47,146 nucleotides of DNA from Syntrophobacteraceae bacterium (GTDB lineage Bacteria > Desulfobacterota > Syntrophobacteria > Syntrophobacterales > Syntrophobacteraceae). A model generated the notes under the pieces. That model did not search any database. It was given only the letters and a program-made list of their open reading frames with translations, and was not told the DNA's origin. The position numbers were made by a program, and so were the translations under genes. Location: the NCBI GenBank assembly GCA_003165235.1, contig PLSV01000141.1:92926-140071 (forward strand). The letters are read 5' to 3'. The first letter of the stretch is position 1; every line of letters starts with the position of its first letter. Of this stretch, positions 25,903 to 34,324 are shown in pieces.

Positions 25903-26979
25903 TTAGAGGTAAAGGGAAAACTCGAGCCCTTTGCGTCTTTTAATCGCTTCCAGCAATCCCGCTGTTCCGGTCATCATATTGTCTCCAAGGGGCGCCCCGA
26001 ATGTGATCGGGAGCTTTGAATTTTCCACGAGCCGCCGCTTTGGGCCTGTGGCTACAATAAGTTCAACAGCCTCGAACCCGAAAGCCTTTCTGATGTATGC
26101 CCCATGACCCCCTTCGGCCAGGATTTGCCGGTGGAGCAGCTTGCCTTCAGCCAGGCCGACCACAAGTGATTCCAATTTTTCCAGACTGAGGTCCTGCGTA
26201 TGGTGCTCGACAACGCCGACAATCTCATTGTCTTCGACAGCCGCGCAGACAGTGTGCGAAGTGGCGATGTCGAGAACGATGAACCTTCTCTTTCCCCTCA
26301 ACTGAAAGTCCATCGATGCGCCAAGTATGGCCGCAATGCCGCTGTCCATGACATAAACTTCCGTGCAGGGAAGATCCGAAGCTGTTTCAGCTATAGATTT
26401 CAGACGATTCAAAAAAAGAGGGACGCTTCGCTTTTCGTAAAGCAAAGATTCCGGTGACGGGGTCCGGTCCAGTGCCGCTTTAATGATTTCATGCCGAAAG
26501 TCCAGATGGGACTTCCCTGCCGGAGGCAGACCGTGGTCCTGGGCGCACACGCCAACAACATCGAATTCGAAAGGAACTCCAAAACCCGTTACTATCCTCT
26601 CTAAATGTTCACGCGGAAAATCACATAGTCTTAAGGATGTAAACTCGCCTGAACCGGCAATTGCCGGGGCTTGGGAATCTTCGATAATTCCGAGACCGGC
26701 GTTGCGAATGCGCTCAGGGTTGTGGCTGAGGGTTCGAGCGGCCGAGGCGGAAATAACTACGCGGGCTTTTTGAGCATGCCGTGAAAGGACATCCAGAAGA
26801 GCGCCTCCCCCCATTTCAACACCGGTTATCAGCAGGTTTCCAGCAATGCTTTGCGCCTGCTCGGCCAGGTAAAGCACGGGGGACCTAACTACAGCCTTGT
26901 AATGCAGACCCGATCGATCGTCATAAAAAAGAACGTCCAATGTTCCGGCGCCGACATCCAAAAGCAAGAATCTGCTCAT
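25903..26979 (-). CDS. DUF1786-type protein with ASKHA ATPase-like fold
   Basis: The 358-residue protein has two phosphate-binding-loop-like segments typical of the actin/Hsp70/sugar-kinase fold: FLLLDVGAGTLDVLFYD at the N terminus and FIVLDIATSHTVCAAVED near residue 245, with GAPLGDNMMTGTAG near the C terminus. This matches the DUF1786 family, sometimes labelled as a putative pyruvate-formate-lyase activating protein without evidence. The ATG at 26979 has GGAG upstream; an in-frame extension to 27066 overlaps the MetK-like gene and looks spurious. The gene follows the MetK-like gene on the same strand with 83 bases between them, so the two probably share a transcript. Confidence 0.75.
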   Translation of the reverse strand: MSRFLLLDVGAGTLDVLFYDDRSGLHYKAVVRSPVLYLAEQAQSIAGNLLITGVEMGGGALLDVLSRHAQKARVVISASAARTLSHNPERIRNAGLGIIEDSQAPAIAGSGEFTSLRLCDFPREHLERIVTGFGVPFEFDVVGVCAQDHGLPPAGKSHLDFRHEIIKAALDRTPSPESLLYEKRSVPLFLNRLKSIAETASDLPCTEVYVMDSGIAAILGASMDFQLRGKRRFIVLDIATSHTVCAAVEDNEIVGVVEHHTQDLSLEKLESLVVGLAEGKLLHRQILAEGGHGAYIRKAFGFEAVELIVATGPKRRLVENSKLPITFGAPLGDNMMTGTAGLLEAIKRRKGLEFSLYL

Positions 26980-27062
26980 TGACTGACTCCAACAATAAGT
27001 TGCATCCGACGGGTTGTGGAAGGGGCGCAAAGGAGCGTTGTTCAACGGAGTACGGAAGTTCA

Positions 27063-28253
27063 TCACCCTTTCAGAAGGTCAGCCCTGTCCGTCTTCTCCC
27101 AGGGCAGGTCCAGATCGAGCCGTCCCACCTGGCCGTAGACTGCGAGCTTCCGGTAGAACCCTCCCTGTCTCATCGCTGGAAGCCTTCTCAGTTGGAAATC
27201 CCTGACTATGGCGGCGAGGCGGAAATCGAAATGATTTTGGAGAAGCGAGGTCAGGTCCTCCTCAGGGATTTTGCCGGTCCCGAAAGTCTCCACCTGGACG
27301 CTTTCGGGATGCGACCGGGAGATCGAATAGCTCAACTGCACCTCGCACTCATCGGCGAGTTCCGCCGCCACCAGGTTCTTGGCTGCGTATCTTGCGGCGT
27401 AGGCGCCCACCCTGTCTATACGAAGCGGGTCTTTCCCGCTGAGAGCGGCCCCACTGTGCCTGGAGTAGTCGCCGTAAGTATCTATGGCGGTTTTTCTCCC
27501 GGTAAGGCCTGAGTGGACCGATGGTCCCCCAAGGTGAAAAACGCCCTCAGGGTTTATGAATATCTCGGTGCGGCGGTCGGGCCGGATCGGCTCGTCCCGG
27601 AACACATGCTCGATGACAGCTTCTCGAATATCGGCCCTCAGCTTGTCCAGCGCAGGCTTTGCGGCGTCTTTCTGGCTGGCCGTGATGGTAATGCTGTGAA
27701 TGCGGGAAGGCTTTCGGTCCCTGTATTCGATTCCGACGTCGGTTTTGGCTTCGGGACAAAGGTAGGGAAGAATTTTTTCTTTTGCCGCCTCCTCCATCCG
27801 TCTCGACAGTTTATGGGCAAGCCAAATGGGCAGGGGCATCAGCGCAACGTTCTGGCGGCATGCGAACCCGAAGGTGGTAACCTGATTTCCGGCCGGAATC
27901 GCCGCAATTTGCTTCGATGTCAGCTTTCTTTCATCAAACCGGTAAACCGGGTCCAGGGGAAGCTCCTTTATGCTCGTCAGCACGCTGGAGGTCCTCGCGT
28001 TGAAATCTGCGCCCTGGTATCCAACCCTTCCGATCACTTTGCGGGCAATTTCCGAGAGACTGAAGGCCGCTTGTGAAGCGAATCTTGCGGCGATGAAGAC
28101 TATCGAAGCGGAGAGCGAACACTCGGCGATTATCCTGGAGTAAGGATCCTGCTCCAGGAAGTGGTCTACTATGGCATCGCTGATGATATCGCAGAGCTTG
28201 TCCGGGTTGCCCTCCGTCACCGATTCCGAAGTAAGCATGAAGTTATTTTTCAT
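27063..28253 (-). CDS. Divergent S-adenosylmethionine synthetase (MetK) paralogue with altered active site
   Basis: The 396-residue protein aligns end to end with bacterial MetK: LTSESVTEGNPDK, EQDPYSR, LMPLPIWLAHKLSRR, FINPEG, GLTGRKTAIDTYGDYSRHSG, SGKDPLRIDR, AARYAAKNLVAAELAD, VETFGTGKIP, PWEKTD. Several catalytic or methionine-binding positions differ from the E. coli enzyme (numbers from memory): His14 is Asn16, Glu55 is Arg58, Asp118 is Asn123, Asp238 is His247, Lys269 is Arg278. Retained are Asp16, Lys165, Arg244, Lys245, Lys265 and Asp271. The frame is intact over full length, so it is not a decaying gene. Normal SAM synthesis looks unlikely; another substrate or a regulatory role is inferred. 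It pairs with the DUF1786 gene. Confidence 0.85.
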   Translation of the reverse strand: MKNNFMLTSESVTEGNPDKLCDIISDAIVDHFLEQDPYSRIIAECSLSASIVFIAARFASQAAFSLSEIARKVIGRVGYQGADFNARTSSVLTSIKELPLDPVYRFDERKLTSKQIAAIPAGNQVTTFGFACRQNVALMPLPIWLAHKLSRRMEEAAKEKILPYLCPEAKTDVGIEYRDRKPSRIHSITITASQKDAAKPALDKLRADIREAVIEHVFRDEPIRPDRRTEIFINPEGVFHLGGPSVHSGLTGRKTAIDTYGDYSRHSGAALSGKDPLRIDRVGAYAARYAAKNLVAAELADECEVQLSYSISRSHPESVQVETFGTGKIPEEDLTSLLQNHFDFRLAAIVRDFQLRRLPAMRQGGFYRKLAVYGQVGRLDLDLPWEKTDRADLLKG

Positions 28254-28298: not shown

Positions 28299-31200
28299 CT
28301 ATAACGTTTTGCGATAGGCCCCATTATTTTCAGCATTCGGACGTTCGCCTTCACCCTTGGTCGCCTCGTTTACAAGGAGCGGCAAGATCGCGCTGATCCC
28401 GATTATGGCGCCATCGAGGAGACCTAAAGGCGCTACCCCCAGAAGAGTGCGAAGCCCCGGAACGACAAAAGTGAGCAGTTGCAGGCCGAGCGAGCCTCCA
28501 AGCGCCAGTGTGAGCCACCTGTTCGGGGGGAGCTTTTCCCGGTCATATATGCTTACCTTTTCCGAGCGGCAGCTTATGGCGTGAAGCAACTGGGCTATGG
28601 TGAGACTCTGGAAAGCCATCGTGGAGGCCTGCTGTCCAACCCCGTAACGGACCAGACCAGCCCCATAGGCGCCAAGGGTTGCAAGGCTGATTACGCTGGA
28701 TTCGATCCCTATTCGCTTGAAATCCTGCCTCCCTACGATCGGCTCTTTGGGATCGCGAGGCGGCCGCTCCAAAATGCCAGGTTCCGGGGGCTCCAAAGCG
28801 AGGGCGAGGCTGGGGAAGATATCGGACATAAGGTTTATCCAGAGAAGCTGCATGGCGCTAAGCGGATAACCAATACCGACCGCGCCTGCCACGAACATCA
28901 CTATGATTTCGCTGAAATTGGTCGAAAGGAGAAAATGCAGCGATTTTTTGATATTGTCGTGTATTGCCCTGCCGTGGCCGACTGCCAGGACCATTGTTTC
29001 CAAATTGTCGTCTTCGAGCACCACGTCGGCTACCTGCCGTGCGACGTCGGTGCCGCTGTGACCCATGGCGATTCCGATATCGGCGGCCTTGAGCGCCGGC
29101 CCATCGTTAATGCCGTCGCCTGTCATCGCCACTATCTTTCCGGCATCCTGCAGGGCCTGAACTATTTGCAACTTATGGGCCGGACTCACCCTGGCGAATA
29201 CGTGCACCCTTTGCGAAAGAGCCCTCAGCGCCCTTGAATCGATGTCGGTAAGGCTGGTCGAATCAAGGATTTCTATCGGCATGTCCCGGCTCAGGCTCAG
29301 CGCTTTTCCGATTGCATACGCGGTCGGGCTCTGGTCGCCTGTCAGCATTATGGTGTCTATCCCGGCGTGGTGGAAGCGCGCGATCAACTCCTTCATTCCA
29401 GGGCGCAGCGGGTCCGCCATACCAATAAGCCCAACCCATGTCAGACCGCTAAGTCCGTCCAGCACCTCTTCGTCTTCGGCGGATTGGAATGCAAATCCGA
29501 GCACGCGGAGCGCTTCGCCCGCCATGCGCTCGTTCTCGATCTCGATTGTCGAGATGTCCTGCTCGCCGATCGGGAGCTTTCGCCCCCCAACAAGTTGCGT
29601 GTCGCACAAGCCGAGAACTTCCACCGGGTTTCCCTTTAAAGCCAGAAACCTTTCGGTAGTCCCGGCGATATGGACGGTGGACATGAATTGGTGGTCTTCG
29701 GTGCGAAATCTGGTCTTGATTCTGGGATAGCGCTCGTTGATCTCCGCTATGCTGAGACCGGCGCTGACAGCGAATTCGAGCAGCGCTTTTTCGGTAGATG
29801 AACCTTGATCGGCCTCTTTTCCGCTTACTTCCCCACACAGAATGCAGATTCTGGCCAGTTGCAGAAGCTCCGGGCTGTTGCGCGGGCTGATTTTTTTGCC
29901 GCCCTGGAAAAATCCGTCCTGCTTCAGCTCAGTCGCATGATTCCCGGAAAATATTCTCATTACCGACATGCGGTTTTGGGTTACTGTTCCGGTCTTGTCA
30001 AAACAGATCGTCTGAACTTCTCCCAACGTTTCCACGGCTTCCAGGTCCCTGATAATTACCTGGTGGGCGTTCAATTTGCGGATACCCAACGCCAGGGTCG
30101 TAGTGGCGACTGTCGGAAGCCCCTCCGGGACGGCGGCTACGGCAAGGGAAATGGTCGTTTTGGTAATGAGCGCAAGTGCGGTCCGCCTAATCACGCCCGT
30201 TATAAAAACCAGCGCGCACAGGGCCCCGCTCAACCACACGAGTTGGTTGCCGATAATATTTAATTGTTTTTCCATCGGGGTCTGCGGGGCGATGGTTTCG
30301 CCGATCATCGCCTGAAGCTTTCCTATCTCTGTAAGGAGGCCGGTTGCGACTACTATCCCACGTCCCTCCCCTCCGGTAACGAGCGTGCCCATATAGACGA
30401 TGTTTTTGCGGTCGGCGAGCGGAATATCGGCTTCGTCAATCACTTCGGCTTCTTTGAACACAGGGATGCTCTCGCCGGTAAGACTTGATTCATCGACCCT
30501 GAGGCGAGCGGCCTCAAGGAGTCTGCAATCGGCGCCTACGTACGTTCCCGGCTCAAAGATCATCAGGTCACCGGGGACCAGATTACGGGCGTCGATTCGC
30601 TTCCTGGCGCCGTCCCGGACCACCACCGCCGATGGATGCATCAGGGTTTTGAGAGAGGAGATGGTCCTTTCGGCCTTATCTTCTGTTACGAAGCCGATCG
30701 TAGAATTGATCGCCACCACGGTCATTATTGCTACTGCATCAACGATTCCGCCTGTGAGGACGGAAATCCCCGCGGCAACGCCGAGCAGAGCCACCGGCAG
30801 AGAAGTCAACTGATTGAGAAAAATCTGTAATTTCGATCTGCGCGGCGCTTCTGGAAAGCGATTAAGTCCAAAGGCCGCAATCTTTTCGCGGGCAACCTCA
30901 CTCGAAAGACCTGCCTCTGCGGAACCTCCGCAGGCGGCAACCACGGCCTGAGCGCCGATTGTGTGCCAGGGGCGCTCGTATGTCAGACATCCAACGCCGG
31001 ATGATGGATGGCGGATGGCGGGCGGCAGGACCTGCCCCGGTTCTGATCCGGGGGCGGCGGCCGGGATTTCAACAGTCCGCCCCTTCACCCGCAAGGCGGG
31101 CAGGGCGGTTGGGATGGCGGCCGATGGCGAATGGCGCTGAAAGCGGTTTTTCTGCGCCCTCCGATCCGCGATATCCGATTTGCCTAAGCGATATCGGATA

Positions 31201-31481
31201 TCGGATTCGTAAGATTGATTGAATTCAGAAACGGCCTTTTCGACCAAAGACCTGATAAGGCCAAGCGTGGCCCCGGAATCATAGCGCAACAACACGGCTG
31301 AAGTAAGAGTGTTTGCGGTGGCGCTGATTACCGAGGGGTCTGCGCCAAGCCTGCGCTCGAGGTGGTCCTTCAGAGAATCGCAGCGGTAGAGTTCTCTTAT
31401 CCTGAATCTCGCTCTGCCGGTTATGGCGGCGTGTAAAGTCTCGACCACGGCGAATTCCTGCGCAGTGAACGGCCCAATCAC
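28299..31481 (-). CDS. P-type cation ATPase with arginine-motif HMA-like N-terminal domain
   Basis: The 1060-residue transporter has a P2-type core: actuator DESSLTGES, membrane motif AAVPEGLPTV (as in Ca2+ and related pumps), phosphorylation site CFDKTGT with Asp495, MLTGDQS, and hinge MTGDGINDGPALKAADIG. There are about ten membrane helices. The N-terminal 90 residues form an HMA-like domain in which the metal-binding C-x-x-C is replaced by GRARFRI (residues 22-28). Residues about 95-170 are a low-complexity linker coded by repeat DNA (30999-31210). The same arginine-type domain recurs in three small proteins nearby. The ion cannot be read; PEGLP argues against the Cu+/Zn2+ P1B type. Its start overlaps the preceding repeat-protein gene by 4 bases. 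Confidence 0.9.
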   Translation of the reverse strand: MIGPFTAQEFAVVETLHAAITGRARFRIRELYRCDSLKDHLERRLGADPSVISATANTLTSAVLLRYDSGATLGLIRSLVEKAVSEFNQSYESDIRYRLGKSDIADRRAQKNRFQRHSPSAAIPTALPALRVKGRTVEIPAAAPGSEPGQVLPPAIRHPSSGVGCLTYERPWHTIGAQAVVAACGGSAEAGLSSEVAREKIAAFGLNRFPEAPRRSKLQIFLNQLTSLPVALLGVAAGISVLTGGIVDAVAIMTVVAINSTIGFVTEDKAERTISSLKTLMHPSAVVVRDGARKRIDARNLVPGDLMIFEPGTYVGADCRLLEAARLRVDESSLTGESIPVFKEAEVIDEADIPLADRKNIVYMGTLVTGGEGRGIVVATGLLTEIGKLQAMIGETIAPQTPMEKQLNIIGNQLVWLSGALCALVFITGVIRRTALALITKTTISLAVAAVPEGLPTVATTTLALGIRKLNAHQVIIRDLEAVETLGEVQTICFDKTGTVTQNRMSVMRIFSGNHATELKQDGFFQGGKKISPRNSPELLQLARICILCGEVSGKEADQGSSTEKALLEFAVSAGLSIAEINERYPRIKTRFRTEDHQFMSTVHIAGTTERFLALKGNPVEVLGLCDTQLVGGRKLPIGEQDISTIEIENERMAGEALRVLGFAFQSAEDEEVLDGLSGLTWVGLIGMADPLRPGMKELIARFHHAGIDTIMLTGDQSPTAYAIGKALSLSRDMPIEILDSTSLTDIDSRALRALSQRVHVFARVSPAHKLQIVQALQDAGKIVAMTGDGINDGPALKAADIGIAMGHSGTDVARQVADVVLEDDNLETMVLAVGHGRAIHDNIKKSLHFLLSTNFSEIIVMFVAGAVGIGYPLSAMQLLWINLMSDIFPSLALALEPPEPGILERPPRDPKEPIVGRQDFKRIGIESSVISLATLGAYGAGLVRYGVGQQASTMAFQSLTIAQLLHAISCRSEKVSIYDREKLPPNRWLTLALGGSLGLQLLTFVVPGLRTLLGVAPLGLLDGAIIGISAILPLLVNEATKGEGERPNAENNGAYRKTL
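30999..31210. repeat. Heptanucleotide repeat block inside the P-type ATPase gene
   Basis: Three groups of 7-base units lie here. 30999-31026 reads GGATGAT, GGATGGC, GGATGGC, GGGCGGC. 31112-31139 reads GGATGGC, GGCCGAT, GGCGAAT, GGCGCTG. 31163-31210 reads GATCCGC, GATATCC, GATTTGC, a 6-base unit, GATATCG, GATATCG, GATTCGT. CGATATCCGAT (31169-31179) and ATCGGATATCG (31193-31203) also form an 11-bp perfect hairpin. The block is in frame and codes for the linker between the HMA-like domain and the pump core. Confidence 0.7.
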
Positions 31482-32086
31482 TTATCCCGGCGCGGAATAG
31501 CCGCTCCAGCGACATCCTTGACACCGGAAACAACGCCCATCAAAATCGAGCGCACTGCGCTTACGGCGTTTTCCCCAACAGACCCGGCCGCCTCGATGGC
31601 CCCGTTTACGGCAGCCTTAGCGACCTCATTGACGTTTCCGCCGATCTGCCCAGCGGCCTCCACGATTCCGTCAACCGCTCTTCTGGCAACGACGGCGACG
31701 TCCGCCCCGACATCGGCGGCCCCCGTCACGACGTCTCTGGCAGTCCGGGCAGCGGCGCCAACCACGTCACCTCCGACCTCACTTACTCCGATGATTATCC
31801 CCTTCGCTATACTTTTGGTTCCGTCCAGAAGACCAGAGCCGGCTTCCTGCGCGGCCGCGATGGTTCCTTTGACAACGTCGCCCGCCACTCCAACCGCCCC
31901 GTTTGCAACTGCCCCAGTCGCATTTATCGTGTCCGAGACGGTCTTTCGCGCCAACTCCACCAACCCGGCCTCAACCTGGTTAATTATCTGGAAGCCGTTA
32001 ATTATGCCTTCCTTTACCGTTTTTTGGGCGCCCTCGCTACTTTTAACGGGAGTGTCCTGTGCTGAAGCAGATTCGCTCTTTTTCAT
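31478..32086 (-). CDS. Protein of 22-residue amphipathic repeats (Ala/Gly/Val rich)
   Basis: The 202-residue protein has no signal peptide or cysteine. From about residue 45 to 190 it is made of six to seven units of 22 residues that start like A-R-x-A-V-x-G-x-I-x-A-A-G and end V-G-x-x-V; two clean examples are ARRAVDGIVEAAGQIGGNVN and AKAAVNGAIEAAGSVGENAV. A 22-residue (two times 11) period gives a continuous amphipathic helix, as in lipid-coating proteins such as apolipoproteins, perilipins or LEA proteins, or in phasins. The stop overlaps the P-type ATPase start by 4 bases, so the two are co-translated. A membrane-surface coat in the same module is inferred. Confidence 0.8.
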   Translation of the reverse strand: MKKSESASAQDTPVKSSEGAQKTVKEGIINGFQIINQVEAGLVELARKTVSDTINATGAVANGAVGVAGDVVKGTIAAAQEAGSGLLDGTKSIAKGIIIGVSEVGGDVVGAAARTARDVVTGAADVGADVAVVARRAVDGIVEAAGQIGGNVNEVAKAAVNGAIEAAGSVGENAVSAVRSILMGVVSGVKDVAGAAIPRRDK

Positions 32087-32273
32087 TTTTATCTCCCCTG
32101 TTTTCCCGGCCCCACCCGGCGATCATTCAGGGGAAGGGCCTCAGAAAGCAATCTAAATCCCCTACCGGAATCCCGCGCGCCGGACCGCAAATATTATTCC
32201 CTATGCTTATCCGGCCATTGCTCCGAGAACTTATCGCCCCGGGGTCTCTCCGAAGTGCTTTGGTAAATGAGTT

Positions 32274-32567
32274 TTAGTAGGCGTCTGAGCCGTCCTCGGC
32301 GTCTGAGACAGGTTCAGAGGTCTGTTGCAGTCTTTCCTGAGCGAGTTCCGCATGAGCTTCCGCAGCCAGGTCCTCCACCGATTCCTTTGCCTCAGCGATC
32401 AGCTCTGCGGCTTTTTCAAACAGAAGTATGGCGCTTTTTATGGACGCCTTGGCCACCGGCCTCACTACGGCCGCAACCGCCGGAGCGATCGCAGGCGCCA
32501 GGATCAGCACTCCGAGACCAATCGCCAGACCTGTTCCGATCTTTAATCCATTGTCAAAAAACGCCAT
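32274..32567 (-). CDS. DUF5132-like small membrane protein
   Basis: The 97-residue protein has one hydrophobic, glycine/alanine-rich segment (about residues 11-40: LAIGLGVLILAPAIAPAVAA), a basic turn (RPVAKASIKSAILL), then a charged amphipathic helix and an acidic tail (VSDAEDGSDAY). This is the layout I associate with DUF5132, a family often found beside HMA-like small proteins and P-type ATPases. The start has GGAGG upstream. It sits in the same strand and gene order as the repeat protein and the pump, with gaps of 120-190 bases. Confidence 0.72.
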   Translation of the reverse strand: MAFFDNGLKIGTGLAIGLGVLILAPAIAPAVAAVVRPVAKASIKSAILLFEKAAELIAEAKESVEDLAAEAHAELAQERLQQTSEPVSDAEDGSDAY

Positions 32568-32687
32568 TCACCACCTCCTGAATTACTCGCGCAATCCGGC
32601 CCAACCTAACCGGAACCGCAACGCGCCCAAACCCGTATTGAAAAAATGTACTTTGATAAAATTGCGTTTACACAATGAAGAAAGCTG

Positions 32688-33197
32688 CTACTCTCCGGCG
32701 GTCGGTCCTTCCGGTGCGCATTCTTCTTCCTTACTATTAAGCTTAATGTAGGACTCAAACGCAAAGTAGGCAAGCAGATACCAGGGCGCAGTCTCGATCT
32801 GAAGGCCTTGCCTGGCGAGTTGCAAAACGGCAAGCGCACCGAGCCCGAGCGGCGCCAGCAGCTTTAAATTCAGAATGCCACTGGTCCCCAGACCCAGATG
32901 CTTATTCAGATCTGAAAGCGCATCGGAGAGCGATGCCGCCGAGGTTTCCACACCCGCTGCCGCCATCAATATGACGCCCATATCCTTCAGCCTGGACTTG
33001 ATATCTTCGATAGCCTCCTGGTCGTGGTGGACAATTATGGTGCCGGCGGTTAGATTGGTCTGGACTTTGCTGACATAGGGAAATGCCTCGAGGGCATTGG
33101 CAATCCGGGCCATTTCTTTTGGATGCCGTCTTTTGCGCGACAACCTGATTCGGGTGCGCCTCGCAGTGCTGGACACAATCTGTGTATGGTCAGCCAT
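32688..33197 (-). CDS. HMA-like domain protein with membrane segment
   Basis: The 169-residue protein begins with an HMA-like ferredoxin-fold domain (1-75). Where heavy-metal domains have C-x-x-C it carries ARRTRIRLSRKRR, an arginine-rich loop; the strands around FPYVSKVQTNLTAGTIIVHH match the pattern of the other HMA-like proteins here. A glycine-rich hydrophobic region (about 100-150) follows, likely two membrane helices, and an acidic C terminus. It is the first gene of the minus-strand part of the cluster, divergent from the next HMA-like gene. No enzymatic motif is visible; a docking or metal-handling role within the cluster is inferred. Confidence 0.75.
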   Translation of the reverse strand: MADHTQIVSSTARRTRIRLSRKRRHPKEMARIANALEAFPYVSKVQTNLTAGTIIVHHDQEAIEDIKSRLKDMGVILMAAAGVETSAASLSDALSDLNKHLGLGTSGILNLKLLAPLGLGALAVLQLARQGLQIETAPWYLLAYFAFESYIKLNSKEEECAPEGPTAGE

Positions 33198-33323
33198 AAG
33201 GACTCGAGTACTTTATCAGAAATTGCGGAAAAAAGATAAGCCACCAGTTACAATAGGTTTCCGGTTTGGTGGTGTCAAGCAAATTTCCGGGACATGATAT
33301 TCCACATAGAGGGCAGGTCAAAA

Positions 33324-33689
33324 ATGGCGGACGAAACTGGAAATAAAGATGTTCTTATAGACGGGTTGCTTGACCTTGCCGGTCAAACGGCAATCGCCCA
33401 TCACATTCCGGGGCGCATCAGGCTCAAGGTGAAGCTCCCCGGGTTGTTTCTCGCACGGGACCTCGAAGCCGGGGACCTGACGAAATACTTTATGGGCATT
33501 GTGGATGTCAGGACCAATGCGGCTGCAAGGTCCATAGTCATCAGCTATGATACGGGGGCAATAGCTCCAGATCTCTGGGAGCGCCTGGTCAACTGCAAAA
33601 AGGACCCATCGCTCAGAAGCGCGGTCAAGGAAGAACTGGAGAGACTTTCCAGGCCGGAACTCGATCAGCGCAGCCCCCAACAGCTTTGA
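33324..33689 (+). CDS. Small HMA-like protein with GRIRLK motif
   Basis: The 121-residue soluble protein has a single HMA-like domain. HHIPGRIRLKVKLPG takes the place of the metal-binding loop, and VDVRTNAAARSIVISYDTG is the beta hairpin that aligns with the same region of the pump and the other small proteins. A charged helix (KEELERLSRPELDQ) ends it. The ATG at 33324 is chosen because GAGGGCAGG lies just upstream; an ATG at 33294 is in frame but has a weaker site. It is divergent from the 32688-33197 gene, with their promoters in the 126 bases between. Function unknown. Confidence 0.72.
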   Translation: MADETGNKDVLIDGLLDLAGQTAIAHHIPGRIRLKVKLPGLFLARDLEAGDLTKYFMGIVDVRTNAAARSIVISYDTGAIAPDLWERLVNCKKDPSLRSAVKEELERLSRPELDQRSPQQL

Positions 33690-33806
33690 CACGCCTCTGT
33701 TTTGTTTGCAACTGCGCCGGCTGCCGGCCATGCACCCAGCCGGTTATAATCTTCCAAGAAAGCTTCCTTTAAACCTATAAACCTTCAAGTCATGTTAAAT
33801 GTCTGA

Positions 33807-33832
33807 GAATTGTACGGATTTTGTCACAATTC
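33807..33832. promoter_or_regulatory. Inverted repeat upstream of the second small HMA-like gene
   Basis: GAATTGT (33807-33813) and ACAATTC (33826-33832) form a 7-bp dyad with a 12-base spacer, about 120 bases before the start at 33953. It is a possible operator; no regulator is identified. Confidence 0.3.
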
Positions 33833-33952
33833 CGTAGCATTCGACGTTTATTTTCACACTGTGCGCGAGGATGCCCGGGAACTAAACCGGGTCTCTTTCA
33901 GATTAGAAGGTAGAAGATTTCTGGATTCAAGATTTTGTGATGGGAGGTGACA

Positions 33953-34324
33953 ATGAGCTATTATTGCCACAGTACTCCGGGGAGACTCAGAATCAAAACA
34001 CCAGTAATAAAGCAGAACCCGGTGAAAATAGAGAAAGTGCGCGGAACGCTTCGAGCGCTCCCGGGAGTCGATGCCGTTTCCATTAACTCTTTGACCGGAA
34101 GCATCACAATCAATTATTCCGGCGGCGCGACGGATTCGGAGTCGATTTTGAGTATTCTGAAAGAAAAGGGTTATTACAGGACGTCATCGATAGAAGAACA
34201 GGAGCGCCCTTTCGAGATCGTAGCGTCGAAGGTCGGAACGACCGTGGGCAAGGCGATTGTGGGGGCTTTGGTCGAAAAAGTCTTCGAAGGCTCAATGCTC
34301 TCATTTCTTGCTTTGCTGATTTAA
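33953..34324 (+). CDS. Small HMA-like protein with GRLRIK motif and hydrophobic tail
   Basis: The 123-residue protein has an N-terminal HMA-like domain with HSTPGRLRIKTPV in the loop position and VDAVSINSLTGSITINYSGG as the following hairpin, then a C-terminal glycine/hydrophobic segment (GTTVGKAIVGALVEK and SMLSFLALLI) that may insert in the membrane. The ATG at 33953 has an excellent GGGAGGTGA ribosome binding site. Of the four HMA-like domains in the cluster it is the closest to the family pattern. It is in the same direction as the 33324 gene, 263 bases downstream. Confidence 0.78.
   Translation: MSYYCHSTPGRLRIKTPVIKQNPVKIEKVRGTLRALPGVDAVSINSLTGSITINYSGGATDSESILSILKEKGYYRTSSIEEQERPFEIVASKVGTTVGKAIVGALVEKVFEGSMLSFLALLI

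Follow-up and report, generated by a model that had tools for sequence, protein, structure and literature searches.

The pump of ferrosome (fez) clusters, FezB, is a P1B-6 iron pump with a basic N-terminal motif. The CoBaHMA domain, a member of the heavy-metal-associated (HMA) superfamily linked to membranes and calcium, has basic residues instead of the cysteine motif and an extra first strand; calcyanin carries long glycine-zipper repeats. FezC of the ferrosome clusters is a DUF4405-like cytochrome according to PMC11334425 (this and all papers below are cited from excerpts), and PacL, the DUF1490 protein of the M. tuberculosis platforms or effluxosomes, is a proposed scaffold and chaperone of its P-ATPase (PMC9374683, PMC13043812). 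We report here on a gene cluster in a stretch of 47,146 nucleotides (the whole stretch is called the window) from a Syntrophobacteraceae bacterium. The cluster encodes a P2A pump, small arginine-motif HMA proteins (HMAa, HMAb and HMAc), a DUF5132 protein, an amphipathic repeat protein (REP) and a relative of the S-adenosylmethionine (SAM) synthase MetK, and these parts are encoded together across several phyla. The cluster is real, conserved, wider than a preceding sequence-only reading had noted, and does not belong with the ferrosome clusters; what surprised us is that a Ca-type pump has a partner derived from MetK.

The sequence-only reading had drawn a comparison with ferrosomes. The likeness consists in a P-type ATPase with a basic N-terminal motif, as in the fez pump, encoded with small membrane proteins. 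It does not extend to membership, which we reject because the window pump is of the P2A type (closest to SPCA1 and LMCA1) and not P1B, and because no FezC-type DUF4405 protein occurs in the cluster (none among nine cluster-region proteins scanned with Pfam). The genome has two DUF4405 matches, both on a different contig and within reading frames of 643 and 1023 amino acids. The comparison came with its own caveat, namely that the PEGLP motif would make this a variant or a different system. We regard a ferrosome variant storing iron as the least probable of the readings weighed here; P1B-size pumps with similar N termini do lie near some of the clusters and add to the likeness just mentioned, but the Ca-type sites of the P2A pump and the absence of FezC from the cluster speak against it.

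The co-occurrence of the parts was assessed in two sets. The genomes of 84,980 species were searched with the DUF5132 alignment; one peptide pattern yielded 180 relatives, and the figures for loci refer to the best 80 of the 180; some contigs end near the DUF5132 match, so that absences at those loci mean little. An HMA gene lies directly downstream of DUF5132 at 68 of the 80 loci and is present at 73. A P2 pump (above 200 bits, fragments included) is found at 48, a weaker pump match, alone or in addition, at 17 (13 with P1B-size frames of at least 700 amino acids, the others shorter), REP at 36 and a MetK-like gene at 33; pump and MetK-like genes are adjacent on the same strand at 28. In the 56 loci whose right flank measures 6 kb or more, the numbers are 46 (HMA downstream), 37 (P2 pump), 10 (weaker pump), 27 (REP) and 30 (MetK-like). 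The loci span Desulfobacterota, Nitrospirota (Nitrospirae), Methylomirabilota (Methylomirabilis), Burkholderiales, Nitrosovibrio, other Pseudomonadota and Cyanobacteria.

The second set comprises 97 related genomes, to which several of the 80 loci also belong. DUF5132 was found in 21 of them (20 over the cut-off; the match below it, in G039, was counted as negative) and HMA_2 in 25, and all 20 have both. A MetK-like gene is present in 18 of the 20 DUF5132 genomes versus one of the 77 others (G023, which has HMA_2). The table of 18 with both, 2 with DUF5132 only, 1 with the MetK-like gene only and 76 with neither gives a Fisher p of 2e-16, a value to be read with the fact that close relatives among the 97 are not independent. 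A score band served to assign the MetK-like genomes, namely those with a full-length match below 400 bits, plus a partial match in G022; doubtful fragments (G023, G027, G029, G033, G034, G039, G077) score higher with the canonical profile, except for the full-length G023 copy, and leave the table unchanged. The dedicated metal or membrane module proposed in the sequence-only reading is thus well supported by recurrence in Desulfobacterota, Nitrospirota, Methylomirabilota, Pseudomonadota and Cyanobacteria; lack of co-occurrence in other genomes, which that reading had named as contrary evidence, was not what we found, the co-occurrence of DUF5132 and HMA_2 being near perfect.

The MetK-like protein matches MetK over its full length and reaches 350 bits with TIGR01034, versus 591 bits for the canonical MetK of the genome, located elsewhere; since the cut-off is 309, a pipeline using this model would name the gene metK. 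In the tree, 42 MetK-like sequences group together in a single clade (support 1.0, stem 0.96), separate from 48 canonical sequences. That this is an ordinary metK lying nearby by chance was rejected on account of the separate clade and of the canonical-type copies elsewhere in the genomes. Such a copy is matched in all 19 related genomes with a MetK-like gene (only as a fragment in G023) and in 19 of the 20 genomes behind the wider loci, G107 having the MetK-like gene only; in G102 it is the canonical copy, and in G106 the MetK-like one, that is matched only in part.

Residues were compared in 42 of the 45 MetK-like matches, after removal of identical sequences and those of 350 amino acids or fewer, and E. 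coli numbers were placed by motif position in the canonical MetK of the same genome. Apart from the residues named in the source cited next, the E. coli numbers and the human equivalents are our own assignment: we take E55, Q98 and D238 to be Glu70, Gln113 and Asp258 of human MAT2A, and K269 to be Lys289. E55, Q98, I102, H14, D163, R229, F230 and D238 are E. coli MetK residues named, with the SAM contacts listed, in PMC8727953; Glu70, Gln113 and Asp258 of MAT2A bind methionine, and patient variants Asp258Gly and at Lys289 show low SAM synthesis with phosphatase activity unaffected (PMC6850014). In the MetK-like set, the methionine-contact residue E55 is R in 41 sequences and H in one, Q98 is lost in all 42, and D238 is H in all 42; the window protein has R, L and H at these positions. 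I102 and R229, further SAM contacts, are lost throughout (two of the I102 cells are gaps), and K269 is R throughout. On the other side, D16, K17, E42, K245, K265 and D271 are kept in all 42, H14 and R244 in 40 and K165 in 37, while D163 is unchanged in 36 and replaced by E in 6. What is shared with MetK is the full-length match and most of the triphosphate and metal residues; what differs is the replaced methionine and adenosine contacts and the separate clade.

Judging by these residues, we believe that the MetK-like protein is likely no longer a SAM synthase. We say likely only, because archaeal methionine adenosyltransferases make SAM with a diverged site and a different residue set (PMC8727953). 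That the protein still makes SAM, serving a local methylation step, seems to us quite unlikely. The full-length match, the kept triphosphate residues and the archaeal enzymes would allow it, as would the finding that Gln113Ala alone left about 76% of the activity (PMC6850014); however, E55, Q98, I102, R229 and D238 are all changed together, and the canonical-type matches stand beside the MetK-like ones in the genomes just described. A whole clade of genes scoring as metK is thus probably not SAM synthase, which is a warning for annotation, and the clade is a natural experiment in rebuilding the substrate pocket of an essential enzyme. In a genus relative, a remnant of the MetK-like gene lies between HMAa and DUF1786 (L074:9383-9880), and the DUF1786 frame there is of full length.

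The proteins closest to the pump among those with solved structures are SPCA1 (465 bits) and LMCA1 (447 bits). The pump reaches 590 bits with TIGR01522, the NCBIfam PMR1-type equivalog, and does not attain its cut-off of 798. The pump set contains 53 of 57 sequences (duplicates dropped), taken only above 900 bits and 950 amino acids. The motif DKTGT is present in all 53, the E of PEGLP in 48, and in transmembrane segments (TM) 5 and 6 the conserved residues are N in 50 and E in 49 (TM5) and N in 52 and D in 49 (TM6, where three rows are gapped in the D column). The window pump keeps the phosphorylation motif and all the listed Ca-site residues of TM4, TM5 and TM6, a set which, judging by the family, we take to be a Ca2+/Mn2+-type P2A site. 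On sequence, the pump is a P2A Ca2+/Mn2+-type ATPase and not P1B, with Ca2+ or Mn2+ as its presumed ion, and the P2 type read earlier from PEGLP stands. With SPCA1/PMR1 and LMCA1 it shares the core sequence, PEGLP, N and E in TM5 and N and D in TM6; it differs from them by the N-terminal arginine HMA domain and the recurrent partner genes.

The four domains in which an arginine motif had been said to replace CxxC are indeed present. PF19991 (HMA_2) matches all four proteins, HMAa and HMAc over the cut-off and the pump N terminus and HMAb below it; in a set of 59 related domains, drawn from HMAa, HMAb, HMAc and the N termini of pumps, [GR]RxR occurs in 56 and CxxC in one. All 53 distinct P2 pumps have G22, R23 and R25 of the GRxR motif at the N terminus; likewise invariant are H26, H27, P29, G30, R31 and R33 in the HMAb alignment (13 sequences) and R14 and R16 in that of HMAa (10 sequences). 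A shared HMA-like fold, also proposed from the sequence, is supported by PF19991 on all four, by AlphaFold2 models of two of the four (HMAa and HMAb) and by the HMAc profile, which found HMA domains of copper ATPases in the PDB (E 3.4e-14 for the best of them) in an alignment beginning at profile position 26, past the arginine motif. Both models have the order strand-strand-helix-strand-strand-helix, so that two strands precede the first core helix. The mean predicted local distance difference test score (pLDDT) is 84 for HMAb; for HMAa it is 70 overall, 82-92 at residues 11-70 and 51-74 in the helices 111-130 and 134-159. Foldseek against the PDB gave nothing at E <= 0.001 for either model. 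For HMAa, copper-HMA domains are among the best matches (probability up to 0.99, E about 0.05), the first being YbgJK; for HMAb, the HMA matches are weak (0.77 at most), and folds of the ArgR type outscore them (0.95). In the model, the helical hairpin of HMAa is probably a membrane anchor, and the hydrophobic C-terminal parts of HMAa and HMAc look like such anchors.

The basic residues in place of CxxC and the extra first strand are common to the window domains and CoBaHMA; in contrast to calcyanin, the domains of the window occur in small proteins of their own and at the N terminus of a pump, and the tails are short. We consider it very unlikely that the cluster is an intracellular calcium-carbonate module, i.e., a non-cyanobacterial counterpart of calcyanin-based mineral formation. 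An arginine-motif HMA domain followed by a glycine-rich hydrophobic tail resembles the calcyanin plan. In PMC11773610, ccyA is the one known gene and is lacking in the carbonate-forming magnetotactic Pseudomonadota; carbonate-forming Nitrospirota also exist, with transporter copy number as the sole genetic lead in the part of PMC12710302 cited. However, the excerpt of PMC11773610 reports no P-type Ca2+ pump in the carbonate-forming magnetotactic genomes, and neither a carbonic anhydrase nor a bicarbonate transporter is among the ten neighbour families that were given to Pfam (one representative each; the other recurrent neighbours were left unannotated).

The DUF5132-like protein named in the sequence-only reading matches PF17195 over the cut-off and has one hydrophobic segment. 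Its plan, in an alignment of 22 sequences, is that of PacL in the cited descriptions: a glycine-bearing hydrophobic segment, then an E/A-rich helix (PMC9374683, PMC13043812). The likeness to the PacL platforms lies in a P-type ATPase gene accompanied by one for a small protein that spans the membrane once and has an E/A-rich helix. The differences are that the window pump is P2A and not P1B, that Pfam-level similarity is lacking, that the module adds HMA, REP and MetK-like parts, and that it is not limited to Actinobacteria. For none of the 22 DUF5132 proteins does Pfam list DUF1490 or DUF6110 at E-values up to 10, a range in which the HMMER filters drop most weak matches; PacL membership by sequence was rejected, and we keep it as an analogy only. 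No solved relative is convincing (best E 0.14). A literature search, in which subscription journals were mostly not covered, found no paper naming DUF5132 and none on the MetK-like family, so we can claim no priority.

By this analogy the cluster might be an efflux platform of the plasma membrane, in which DUF5132 and the HMA proteins would cluster or stabilise a Ca/Mn export pump in the manner of PacL and CtpC, with no internal store. We consider this possible, though on balance unlikely. It agrees with the shared plan, and also with the cyanobacterial loci, 10 of 17 of which have a P1B-size pump with an HMA match near DUF5132, as expected of a general pump scaffold. The negative Pfam result for DUF1490 and DUF6110 tells against it, and it leaves the lipid-coat-like REP and the MetK-like enzyme unexplained.

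REP is an amphipathic repeat protein, as first noted: its hydrophobicity autocorrelation is 0.58 at lag 22 and 0.45 at lag 11, a harmonic of the former (95% limit of shuffled sequences 0.24). The Senescence domain PF06911 is matched by nine of nine REP homologues (best 2.4e-6; 0.0085, below the cut-off, for REP of the window), phasin by six of the nine (best 0.036) and synuclein by three (best 0.013), all of these matches being weak. Proteins of these types are lipid- or granule-surface helices, and it is on the basis of these matches that we suggest a membrane or lipid coat for REP.

Our preferred reading, held tentatively and with somewhat less than even confidence, is that the cluster is a scaffolded, lipid-associated module for the sequestration or efflux of divalent cations, joined by an enzyme that handles phosphate and has ceased to be a SAM synthase. 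The ion, the compartment and the enzyme reaction are what we infer; we presume the following. DUF5132 and the anchored arginine-HMA proteins would cluster the pump at a patch of the membrane or at an internal membrane. The basic face of the HMA domains would bind anionic lipid or an anionic mineral or phosphate, which is likelier than a soft metal because the cysteines are gone. REP would coat the lipid surface of that membrane, and the pump would move Ca2+ (or Mn2+) into a membrane-bounded store or across the patch. The MetK-like enzyme would keep the triphosphate and metal half of its site, with a basic pocket where methionine sat, and may act on tripolyphosphate (our first guess) or on some other anion of phosphate type by which the cation would be buffered or trapped. 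The module may work like ferrosome clusters and PacL platforms, by analogy, but it fails membership of both.

Phosphate-transport-type solute-binding and permease genes adjoin the module in seven Nitrospirota-type loci, and PhoU in five. By Pfam (one representative each), PBP_like_2, BPD_transp_1 and PhoU are seen beside it at L125:3752-8158, L113, L132, L133, L134, L139, L140 and L143. A CorA-type Mg2+ transporter gene directly follows the MetK-like gene at four loci (L118:6780-7769, L133, L137 and L140). The phosphate-transport neighbours accord with an acidocalcisome-like store, in which the pump would load Ca2+ into a compartment rich in polyphosphate or phosphate and the MetK-like enzyme would work on tripolyphosphate; so do the Ca-type pump, the kept triphosphate residues with loss of the methionine and adenosine contacts, and a REP of the lipid-surface type. 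We nevertheless consider such a store unlikely, given that the phosphate neighbours are confined to one lineage and that no polyphosphate kinase, proton pump or VTC-type gene is among the ten annotated neighbour families. The bolder proposal is an undescribed but widespread cation-storage compartment (acidocalcisome-like or mineral-forming) with a Ca-type pump on arginine-HMA/DUF5132 scaffolds, a REP-coated membrane and a new enzyme family derived from MetK, in which a basic anion pocket has taken the place of the methionine pocket; we would call it doubtful.

Several observations weigh against the scaffolded sequestration or efflux module that we prefer. TM8 has Q in 49 of the 53 pumps, the position at which SERCA has E, so only a part of the SERCA site is kept. 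In the MetK-like protein, H14 is N in the window and in its sister L075 (2 of 42), which may weaken any catalysis, and among the 42 D118 is changed in 36 and kept in only 6, and F230 is kept in 23. The gene is under constraint despite the H14 change, the ratio of nonsynonymous to synonymous substitution rates (dN/dS) being about 0.08 for the window compared with L075 and 0.05-0.08 for two further pairs. The architecture is not uniform: at 12 of the 80 loci no HMA gene directly follows DUF5132 downstream (in two cases the locus ends at that point), and the window itself is without the HMA gene usual between DUF5132 and REP, its HMAa lying upstream of DUF5132. Among the long-flank loci, five (L117, L120, L122, L128 and L182) have DUF5132 without an HMA gene or pump, REP being present in two and an additional hydrophobic protein of about 180 amino acids in three; in some pump-bearing ones (e.g., L116, L121 and L150) a MetK-like gene was not found. 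The phosphate-transport neighbours, which fit the module, are lineage-bound.

If the preferred reading is right, it would give a genetic handle on bacterial Ca or Mn sequestration outside cyanobacteria. The parts of the module are few and can be tested experimentally.

The six genes named in the sequence-only reading are all confirmed at their positions (Table 1). That reading had passed over the MetK-like and DUF1786 genes, which are part of the same minus-strand run: REP and the pump overlap by 4 bp, 45 bp separate the pump from the MetK-like gene, and the latter overlaps DUF1786 by 4 bp. DUF1786 is present in seven close loci (the window counted) but in only one of the 80 wider loci, and was for this reason dropped as a core member and treated as accessory. 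No RNA elements or tRNAs were found in the window. The source assembly has 7.07 Mb in 424 contigs (completeness 97.8, contamination 8.9), and the contig of the window is at least 140 kb long.

Table 1. Features of the cluster, in positions of the window
Feature	Position	Strand	Basis
DUF1786 protein, 4-bp overlap with the MetK-like gene; accessory in close relatives	25903..27066	-	PF08735 5e-64
MetK-like protein, SAM-synthase paralog with remodelled methionine site	27063..28253	-	TIGR01034 350 bits, residues, clade, dN/dS
P2A-type cation ATPase, 1060 amino acids, arginine-motif HMA domain at the N terminus	28299..31481	-	TIGR01522, PDB matches
N-terminal HMA_2-like domain of the pump, residues 15-70, motif GRARFRI	31272..31439	-	PF19991 2.1e-5, below cut-off
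REP, amphipathic repeat protein, period 22 residues (2 x 11)	31478..32086	-	Autocorrelation, weak Senescence match
DUF5132 protein: one hydrophobic segment, conserved K/P stretch, E/A-rich helix	32274..32567	-	PF17195 7.5e-8
HMAa: arginine-motif HMA domain (RRTRIRL), then helical hairpin	32688..33197	-	PF19991 4e-9, over cut-off
HMAa/HMAb intergenic gap, 126 bp, genes divergent; presumed two-way promoter	33198..33323	.	Gene coordinates
HMAb alternative start	33294	+	
HMAb: arginine-motif HMA domain (HHIPGRIRLK), no apparent membrane segment	33324..33689	+	PF19991 9.2e-5, below cut-off
HMAc alternative start	33947	+	
HMAc: arginine-motif HMA domain (H..PGRLRIK), glycine-rich hydrophobic C-terminal tail	33953..34324	+	PF19991 3.1e-11, over cut-off

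Variant loci were also seen. On contig C121 of the same genome (L015:5980-8471) there is a second HMAb-HMAa-DUF5132-HMA-REP copy with no recognised pump and with short frames (HMAb 89 and REP 139 amino acids). Compared with the window, its HMAa and HMAb genes have a dN/dS of about 0.5 and its DUF5132 gene one of 0.24, so the copy may be decaying or may come from a contaminating strain. A convergent HMAb-HMAc pair stands alone at L014:2444-3455, beside a gene of PhoH/PIN type (by eye), with no recognised pump near.

A zinc-ribbon protein (InsA-like, by Pfam on one) is encoded in 17 of the 80 loci, e.g., L110:7179-7604; its gene, not seen in the window, overlaps or abuts HMAc in 14 of the 17, and the protein is possibly a regulator. 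At L018:4922-7207, L077, L101, L117, L120 and L182, DUF5132, in several cases with REP, lies beside the hydrophobic protein of about 180 amino acids, a longer relative of which, in L111, has no Pfam match; a sensor-kinase-like gene is often near (by eye), and no HMA gene or pump was found nearby. Finally, two P1B-size pumps form a pair at each of L093:6567-14314 and L096:8390-14929, and an HMAb-like protein immediately follows the first pump or overlaps its end; three of the four pumps carry an N-terminal GRxRxR/K motif, and these pairs are perhaps nearer to fez-type clusters.

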